DNA from: Tistrella mobilis
GTDB taxonomy: Bacteria > Pseudomonadota > Alphaproteobacteria > Tistrellales > Tistrellaceae
Length of the DNA stretch: 64,000 nucleotides
Assembly (NCBI RefSeq): GCF_041468085.1
Contig: NZ_CP121017.1
Location: 2,211,501 to 2,275,500, forward strand
Direction of reading: 5' to 3'
Position numbers and translations under genes: made by a program. Of the stretch, positions 22,435 to 24,202 are shown piece by piece (within the stretch, counting starts at the first letter, position 1; each line of letters opens with the position of its first letter). The notes beneath the pieces were generated by a model. That model was not told the origin of the DNA. It worked only from the letters and a program-made list of their open reading frames with translations, and did no database searches.

Positions 22435-23058
22435 ATGCATCATCGCTATCTTCTGATCTATCGTTTCCTGCTGGTGAATATGGTGGCCGCCGCGGGGCTG
22501 GCCATGGCCTGGGTCCATGGCTGGATCGACCGGGTGCTCGTGTCTGATTCGAGCCGGATTTCGGTTCTGATCTTTGCGGTCTTCCTGGTCGGCCTCACGC
22601 TCTGTGCCTGGCGGATCATCCAGATCAGCGAAGGGCTGAACGATCTCAAACGGGCCGAACCCGCAAGAAACGGCCGGGTTGCCGCCTATCTTGCCACATT
22701 GACCCGTGTGCCCGAGGCACGCCGCCCGGTGGTTGCCGAGGGGCTGAAGGCCAAGCTCTACGCCCGGGCGTCGAATGTGCGCTACATCGCCGACAGCCTG
22801 GTTCTGCTGGGCCTGATCGGCACGGTGGTCGGCTTCATCGTGGCGCTGTCAGGCGTTGATCAGGACCGTGTCGCCGATGTCTCGGCGGTCGGTCCGATGG
22901 TCGCCCAGCTGCTGGACGGCATGGCGATCGCGCTCTGGACGACCCTGGTGGGCAGCATCCTGCACATCTGGCTTCGGCTGAATTATCAGATCCTTGCGGG
23001 CGGCACCGTCACCCTGGTCGCGGATCTTGTCGCGCGGGGTGAAGGCGATGTTGTATGA
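22435..23058 (+). CDS. MotA/TolQ/ExbB-like proton-channel family membrane protein
   Basis: A 207-residue protein from ATG 22435, after GAGGGGGTGG. Membrane segments are predicted at about 5-25 and 42-63, then a cytoplasmic stretch of about 50 residues, then LVLLGLIGTVVGFIVALSG and MAIALWTTLVGSILHIW. The last two carry the GTVxGF and ALxTTxxG signatures of MotA/TolQ/ExbB channels, including the threonines that line the ion path in ExbB. It is smaller and less flanked than classical ExbB. It overlaps the next gene by 11 bases. I infer an energised ring complex with the product of 23048-23662; the job it powers is unknown. Confidence 0.8.
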   Translation: MHHRYLLIYRFLLVNMVAAAGLAMAWVHGWIDRVLVSDSSRISVLIFAVFLVGLTLCAWRIIQISEGLNDLKRAEPARNGRVAAYLATLTRVPEARRPVVAEGLKAKLYARASNVRYIADSLVLLGLIGTVVGFIVALSGVDQDRVADVSAVGPMVAQLLDGMAIALWTTLVGSILHIWLRLNYQILAGGTVTLVADLVARGEGDVV

Positions 23059-23662
23059 CGACCCTCTCAAACCCGATGGCGACGACGGTGCAGGAACCGT
23101 CTTTCGCGATGTCATCACCCTCACCCTGCTGGGCTTCGTGGCGGTGGTCATCCTGCTGCTGCCGCATCTCAACCCGCCCCGCAAGCAGGATCAGGCGGAA
23201 GTCACCGCCCCCGGCAATGTGATCGTCGAGGCACTGTGGGCGGCGGATCTCGACACGGATGTCGACCTCTGGGTCAAGGCACCGGGGGATGTACCGGTCG
23301 GCTATTCCAACAAGGGCGGGGTCATCTTCAACCTGCTGCGTGACGACCTCGGCCGCTATGGTGACGCCACCGACAGCAATCACGAAGTCTCCTACAGCCG
23401 GGGCATTCCGCCGGGCGAGTACATCGTGAACGTCCATCTGTTCCGTAACCAGAGCCGGCAGCTGCCGGTGCGGGTGAAGGTGGTCGCCAGCGTGAAGAGC
23501 GATCAGCAGTCGTCGGCCCGGCAGATCCTGGCGACCGAGGTGGCCCTGAACCGCGAGGGTGAGGAGATCACGGCGATGCGCTTCCGGCTCGACGACAAGG
23601 CGAGGCTGGTGCCGGACAGCGTCAACAGCCTCTATCAGCGCCTGCGCAGCCATCGCGGGTGA
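23048..23662 (+). CDS. Single-pass periplasmic protein, ExbD-like anchor with a beta-rich domain
   Basis: A 204-residue protein from ATG 23048, overlapping the ExbB-like stop. A short cytoplasmic N terminus leads to one membrane helix, FRDVITLTLLGFVAVVILLL, whose entry Asp-Val matches the position of the essential Asp in ExbD/TolR helices. The periplasmic part is unlike ExbD: a beta-sandwich-like domain with DTDVDLWVKAPGDVPVGYSNK, NHEVSYSRGIPPGEYIVNVHLFRNQ, resembling YfaP/DUF2135-type folds. I do not know a characterised homologue. Context makes it the stator-like partner of the upstream channel protein. Confidence 0.75.
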   Translation: MLYDDPLKPDGDDGAGTVFRDVITLTLLGFVAVVILLLPHLNPPRKQDQAEVTAPGNVIVEALWAADLDTDVDLWVKAPGDVPVGYSNKGGVIFNLLRDDLGRYGDATDSNHEVSYSRGIPPGEYIVNVHLFRNQSRQLPVRVKVVASVKSDQQSSARQILATEVALNREGEEITAMRFRLDDKARLVPDSVNSLYQRLRSHRG

Positions 23663-23677
23663 GGGAAGGAGAGACGC

Positions 23678-24202
23678 ATGAGCGATGTCGTCTACGTCTT
23701 CGCCGCCACGGCCGGCATCGCCGCCCTGCTTGCGACGCTTGCCATCTGGGCGCCCAGGCGCCTTCCGGTACGGATGGCCGCCATCGGGCTGACCGCCTTG
23801 CTGCTGCCCGCCGCCTATCTGGGCTTCACCACATTGTTGTCGCAACCCAAGCCGATCACGATGGAATGGCTGGACAAGGGGGCCGGCGAGGCCACCGTGC
23901 TGGGATCTGTGATACGGGAAGGCGAGGGGATCTATCTGTGGATCCAGCCCGAGGGCGACGATATTCCCCGCTATTATGTCCTGCCCTGGGATCTGAAACA
24001 GGCCCAGCAGTTGCAGAACGCCATGCGCGATGCCGACAAGAACCAGAACGGCCTGAAGATGCGCGCCCCCTACGAGCCCACCTGGGACCGGCGCGAGCCA
24101 CGATTCTATGCGGCACCACAGCCGGCACCGCCACCCAAGCGTGGCCCGGAAGAGGAGGATGACGGGCCGATGATCTATCGTCATCCCGGCTGGGACGTCT
24201 GA
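23678..24202 (+). CDS. Two-helix membrane protein, third member of the ExbB-like module
   Basis: A 174-residue protein starting 15 bp after the previous gene, with GGAAGGAGAG upstream. Helices at about 4-24 and 33-52 are followed by a soluble domain with EGIYLWIQPEGDDIPRYYVL, a helix (KQAQQLQNAMRDADKNQNG) and a tail FYAAPQPAPPPK ending in charged residues. No known catalytic motif is visible. Its 3' end overlaps the convergent SDR gene by 22 bp. Tight packing with the two preceding genes argues for one complex. Function unknown. Confidence 0.75.
   Translation: MSDVVYVFAATAGIAALLATLAIWAPRRLPVRMAAIGLTALLLPAAYLGFTTLLSQPKPITMEWLDKGAGEATVLGSVIREGEGIYLWIQPEGDDIPRYYVLPWDLKQAQQLQNAMRDADKNQNGLKMRAPYEPTWDRREPRFYAAPQPAPPPKRGPEEEDDGPMIYRHPGWDV

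Follow-up and report, generated by a model that had tools for sequence, protein, structure and literature searches.

What does an ExbB-like membrane protein drive when it is encoded together with two proteins that are not recognised as any of its known partners? To our knowledge, few ion-driven machines of the 5:2 type have been described, namely those of flagella, the Ton and Tol systems, gliding and Zorya. We considered this question for a locus situated in 64,000 nt of the Tistrella mobilis genome (contig NZ_CP121017.1, positions 2,211,501 to 2,275,500; hereafter, the window). In the open-access literature we found no publication on these three genes, on DUF2135/YfaP with ExbB or phage, or on PQQ with ExbB.

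Structure of the locus

Three plus-strand ORFs located downstream of era (g1, g2 and g3; together, the trio) make up the locus. The initial annotation had placed them at 22435-24202, overlapping or lying within 15 bp, and this holds: g1 and g2 overlap by 11 bp, while the gap between g2 and g3 is 15 bp. The likely start of g2 is ATG at 23048, located 3 bases upstream of TTG at 23051; from this choice follow the 11 bp overlap and the numbering of the conserved Asp as residue 21 (the same residue is Asp20 if counted from the TTG). The features discussed below are as follows.

22435..23058, + strand: g1, 207 aa; MotA/TolQ/ExbB-family ring protein
22819..22836, + strand: GTVVGF motif, third helix of g1; Thr130 aligns with the GTV-motif Thr of ExbB/TolQ
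22942..22944, + strand: codon of Thr170, fourth-helix channel threonine of g1; aligns with ExbB/TolQ ATAIG
23048..23662, + strand: g2, 204 aa; single-pass axle-like protein with a periplasmic beta-sandwich
23087..23170, + strand: predicted membrane helix of g2 (AlphaFold2 helix 13-40; hydropathy)
23108..23110, + strand: codon of the conserved Asp21 of g2; Asp in 92/106 distinct g2 proteins
23207..23611, + strand: periplasmic beta-sandwich of g2 (AlphaFold2 strands 56-180; TDVDLWV, RDDLG, NxE and GEYxVN motifs)
23678..24202, + strand: g3, 174 aa; two membrane helices and a small mixed domain

As also annotated initially, no TonB, TolA, Tol or flagellar genes lie beside the trio in the window; we saw no neighbours kept across the window's own clade. 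To T. mobilis KA081020-065, g1 has 97% identity, and a search of genome contigs with g1 produced matches in Tistrella only.

The putative ring protein

The assignment of g1 to the MotA/TolQ/ExbB type, made from the signatures GTVxGF and ALxTTxxG, is well founded: the signatures are present as GTVVGF and ALWTTLVG, and the protein matches family PF01618 with E-value 1e-7, its 32.2 bits exceeding the curated cut-off of 22.9. Among PDB structures the g1 profile matched MotA, ZorA, TolQ and ExbB, with MotA (8gqy) as the best match (E-value 8e-7). When compared by hhalign with the host's own TolQ/ExbB/MotA-type proteins, g1 aligned at Prob 96.7% and E-value 5e-10, with GTV over GTV and TT over AT. 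In the host genome PF01618 occurs at seven places and ExbD at four, none of the latter beside g1.

Four helices are predicted in g1, with a short cytoplasmic loop leading from helix 2 to helix 3. Gly126 and Gly129 are present in 69/69 aligned rows, Thr130 in 61/71 and Thr170 in 69/69. The span from the conserved Asp38 to Gly129 has a median of 91 residues in bacteria versus 41-50 in the short phage forms described below.

The axle-like protein and its beta-sandwich

In the AlphaFold2 model of g2 (13 sequences, mean pLDDT 73.7) a single helix (residues 13-40) is followed by a beta-sandwich extending to residue ∼187, in agreement with the original reading of a single-pass protein whose helix begins with FRDVIT. 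Nine residues (W63, D70, D72, L95, D98, G101, E112, N127 and E172) were found in 100% of 71 loci. The claim that the periplasmic domain does not have the ExbD fold is supported, as PF02472 (ExbD) matched neither the window protein nor any of 15 members at E-value 1; no other Pfam family matched the window g2. The further claim of a YfaP/DUF2135-like domain is unproven. The motif style of g2 (TDVDLWV...P.G) is similar to that of DUF2135/YfaP domains, but the match was never significant: DUF2135 (PF09906) was seen weakly in 3/15 homologues (best E-value 0.032) and not in the window g2, and therefore we treat this label as a lead only.

Foldseek searches of solved structures with the g2 model gave nothing at E-value 0.001. 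VIA-align reached a best Z of 7.0, within the background range, with TerD-like structures among the best matches; TerD (PF02342), considered because of these fold matches, was dropped when the profile comparison failed (hhalign Prob 0.8%). A PHROGs search returned weak, unannotated families only, phrog_1735 being the best.

The third gene and possible additional subunits

That g3 is a two-helix protein with no recognised motif agrees with its AlphaFold2 model (pLDDT 71.4), which contains helices 2-24 and 29-53, a mixed alpha/beta domain (71-145) and a Pro-rich tail. No notable fold match was obtained: Foldseek gave nothing at E-value 0.001, and OB-like barrels such as eIF5A, with middling VIA-align Z values up to 6.9, were set aside as uninformative. 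Pro97 is conserved in 98% and Arg98 in 87% of 71 loci. Judging from charges, the loop between the helices would be inside, with the domain and the C-terminus in the periplasm. The g3 protein is likely to be a third subunit.

Tandem g3 pairs occur within one module at two loci (L092:8653-9630, L131:5279-6242). In both classes of bacteria considered below, a lipoprotein with the pattern YFPL..G..W.Y often follows g3 directly (L099:6823-7518, L103:9152-9844, L113:9221-9985, L204:8237-8956, L205:8285-8989); the two of these lipoproteins that were scanned had no NCBIfam match, and a role as a fourth subunit is possible. Several Gammaproteobacteria have a small secreted protein with [TN]DK.F.DV (DUF302-like by eye) encoded upstream of g1 (L191:8783-9253, L200:8819-9325, L201:8988-9464), and the same loci have genes for a secreted protein of ∼500 aa and a tilS-like gene downstream of g3.

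Distribution in bacteria

Matches to the g2 profile were found in 64/385 of the Alphaproteobacteria genomes sampled and in 39/350 genomes of the class taken to be Gammaproteobacteria, a few of the weakest matches being doubtful. Flanking DNA was examined at about 90 g2 places. The initial annotation had proposed co-occurrence of the three genes in other genomes as a check, and we observed all three together in 71 non-identical loci; their co-occurrence extends over two classes and phages. The trio was on one strand in 71/71 of them and in the order g1-g2-g3 in 69; g1 and g2 overlapped or were no more than 20 bp apart in 64. Nearly all of 29 further loci repeated the one-strand g1-g2-g3 arrangement. 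Recurrence on this scale far exceeds what chance would give. Pairwise correlations of the g1, g2 and g3 distance matrices are 0.76-0.80 versus a shuffled maximum of 0.15, with shared ancestry contributing to these values. It is established that the trio is a conserved three-gene module of an ExbB/MotA-type ring protein and an Asp-bearing axle that is not ExbD.

Phage-encoded copies

A direct search of phages with g1 gave nothing, while g2 produced matches. Phages of Rhizobium and Sinorhizobium that belong to several genome types encode g2: 16-3 and its relatives, the N3_19 type, I1_18 and Pootjesviridae (P10VF, N34). Wherever proteins were examined, phage g2 was flanked by g1 and g3, all annotated as hypothetical; 14 viral contigs (metagenomic viruses) add further copies. 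Phage rows are scattered among bacteria in the g2 tree, with six changes as drawn and only one forced by strongly supported branches.

Some phage g1 proteins are of 138-147 aa with almost no cytoplasmic loop (L015:4265-4678, L017:4540-4980, L019:4540-4980); such a size is unusually small for the MotA/ExbB family. In 16-3-like phages and at a prophage-like locus, a gene for a trypsin-like, probably periplasmic, protease is located just upstream of g1 (L015:3238-4137, L016:3045-3767, L122:9389-10033, L146:3385-4098). One of these loci (L122, in G554:C38) is probably a prophage, since its trio clusters with copies from 16-3-like phages and is preceded by the protease gene of phage type. Other sampled members of its genus (g280) had no g2 match, suggesting that these hosts lack a chromosomal trio while their phages carry one.

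Linkage to PQQ-dependent alcohol oxidation

A PQQ alcohol dehydrogenase gene was situated within about 5 kb of the trio at 15/88 bacterial loci (12/49 families), with 1.0 expected. The expectation was determined from genome-wide counts of TIGR03075 genes in 80 trio-bearing genomes under an assumption of random placement; the resulting P-value of 3e-14 ignores kinship, and a per-family estimate with a doubled rate is 4e-9. Neither this linkage nor the phage copies had been foreseen in the initial annotation.

Two loci have the trio inside a PQQ-alcohol cluster. At one (L204), the ATPase gene of an ABC cassette and g1 overlap, and a lipoprotein gene comes after the trio; this cluster includes a PedC-type permease (TIGR03861), a TIGR03866 beta-propeller, a TIGR03863-like binding protein and the PQQ alcohol dehydrogenase. 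At the other (L205), the trio comes after a SoxYZ-like protein (TIGR04557), a TIGR04558 metallohydrolase and a CXXCW protein (TIGR03865). That arrangements differ between families argues for a functional link rather than an inherited position. At most loci, including the window, and at the phage loci examined, no PQQ gene was found near the trio; thus, a role in PQQ metabolism cannot be the general one. PQQ-dependent oxidation is the best lead for one branch, while for phages the lead is a role at the envelope in the course of infection.

Occurrence of the trio in several unrelated groups of phages, together with the patchy spread seen above (64/385 Alphaproteobacteria), could also speak for defence or superinfection exclusion, in which a membrane motor would sense an incoming phage at the envelope and block infection; phages would use it against competitors and bacteria against all phages. 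Zorya is a precedent for motors of such kind in defence, and the channel core of ZorA is the part matched by g1 (10/15 members, best E-value 3e-9). Still, we regard such a function as unlikely. The trio has no long ZorA tail, g2 is not like ZorB with its OmpA-like domain, and ZorC, ZorD and ZorE were not seen beside the trio; its linkage is to PQQ metabolism, not to defence genes. Also, the trio is kept in many genomes of 1.0-1.8 Mb and, within one genus of large genomes (g266), in at least nine members, which suits a housekeeping role better. Identification of g1 as ZorA itself was rejected, as the protein of 207 aa aligns to the front part of ZorA models only and does not reach curated NCBIfam cut-offs, and so was membership in Zorya, with no PADLOC match for g2 and no ZorC/D/E noticed among the neighbours examined.

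The membrane aspartate and its exceptions

It had been claimed initially that g2 has an Asp at the position of the essential Asp of ExbD/TolR; the claim was to fall if homologues did not conserve this residue. The outcome is mostly in its favour: we observed the Asp in 92/106 distinct proteins, but one subtype does not have it. The unguided hhalign alignment of g2 with ExbD proteins of the host puts Asp on Asp; it covers 17 columns with a Prob of 4%, so that its register alone is informative.

The 14/106 proteins with no Asp include 13 membrane-anchored ones (L091, L118-L121, L089, L112, L124, L093, L200, L201, L203, L207) and one that is secreted and helix-less (L102). Nearly all of the anchored proteins have FD(P) shortly before the position and Lys shortly after it, L093 having neither exactly. 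In the first-survey tree, nine of the anchored Asp-less proteins form one group (one change, support 77), and the g1 partners of Asp-less g2 proteins keep both channel threonines. With this subtype in view, reliance on the Asp cannot be claimed for every member: either proton drive of the ExbD kind is not universal here, or the carboxylate now sits elsewhere. The Asp-less subtype may work differently from the Asp-bearing members.

At the locus of the secreted protein (L102:1018-2254) there are two tandem g2 copies with no adjoining g1 or g3; in the second copy a signal-peptide-like start replaces the Asp-bearing helix.

A whole subtype has lost the Asp and acquired a Lys one turn away, with the channel threonines retained; one could read this as a sign of a non-rotary sensor or a regulated proton leak, whose channel would open or signal when the periplasmic domains of g2 and g3 bind a ligand or calcium. 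The conserved Asp-rich loops of the g2 sandwich (DVD, RDDLG, NxE) do resemble metal-binding sites, and TerD is among the best, though non-significant, fold matches (Z 7.0). Nevertheless, 92/106 proteins retain Asp exactly where motors need one, TerD has no profile support (Prob 0.8%) and no linked signalling partner was seen; we regard this explanation, too, as unlikely and rate it marginally below that of defence.

Comparison with known systems

The trio is like ExbB-ExbD and TolQ-TolR in the PF01618 channel core of g1 with its GT...T/TT signatures, in the single helix of g2 with Asp in the same register, and in an operon that includes a third subunit, cf. TonB or TolA. It differs from them in the g2 beta-sandwich with no PF02472 match, in the four predicted helices and small loop of g1, and in g3, a two-helix protein that shows no recognised likeness to TonB or TolA. 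The four-helix topology of g1 and its best PDB match relate the trio to MotA-MotB stators; unlike these, the trio has neither a large cytoplasmic domain nor an OmpA-like peptidoglycan-binding domain nor flagellar genes. A survey of generic ion transporters covers ExbBD/TolQR-like pairs that carry various domains whose function is unknown (PMC12505986). The accessible part of that survey, unlike the trio, has DUF3450 and DUF2341 on A subunits, and neither YfaP nor a phage-encoded pair was found in that part.

That the trio is an unusual ExbBD paralogue, a spare energiser for TonB- or TolA-type transducers encoded elsewhere, is very improbable: g1 does align with the host's own TolQ/ExbB and the host has other ExbB/ExbD-type pairs, but g2 has no ExbD domain and is accompanied by g3, which is probably a third subunit in its own right, TonB genes are not linked, and phages would depend on the TonB of the host.

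Proposed mechanism

On balance, we favour the trio being a compact ion-driven envelope machine related to ExbBD, TolQR and MotAB, with g1 as the ring, a new type of axle, g2, inside it and the output in the periplasm. Homology and conservation make a proton-driven motor likely. We infer the ring and its stoichiometry, the use of protons, the force and all targets. The g1 proteins would form a ring in the inner membrane with two copies of g2 within it, the channel holding their Asp; protons passing this Asp and the g1 threonines would turn or shift g2, and the g2 beta-sandwich, with g3, would transmit force to a periplasmic target. As g1 has little cytoplasmic matter, and its phage forms of ∼140 aa almost none, work would be done on the periplasmic side. 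No force-bearing target such as TonB, Pal or a peptidoglycan-binding domain was identified.

This could be a general envelope machine with a target that varies by host. In many genomes it may serve periplasmic PQQ-dependent alcohol oxidation, perhaps in delivery of substrate, metal or cofactor; in phages, their own copy may serve to maintain or change some function of the envelope while infection proceeds. The full picture, to which we give slightly less than even chances, is a new branch of envelope motors powered by protons, in which the axle is a beta-sandwich protein and the third subunit has two helices. It would operate in dozens of proteobacterial families, in many cases on behalf of PQQ alcohol oxidation in the periplasm, would be used by phages as a membrane motor of their own and would include one subtype with no canonical Asp.

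If true, the trio would add an ion-driven machine with a different output domain, as well as very small phage ring proteins, and its Asp-less subtype would be a natural test of the purpose of the Asp. With the link to PQQ dehydrogenases, one branch has a concrete, testable function, and through the phage-encoded copies a membrane motor would belong to the phage programme.
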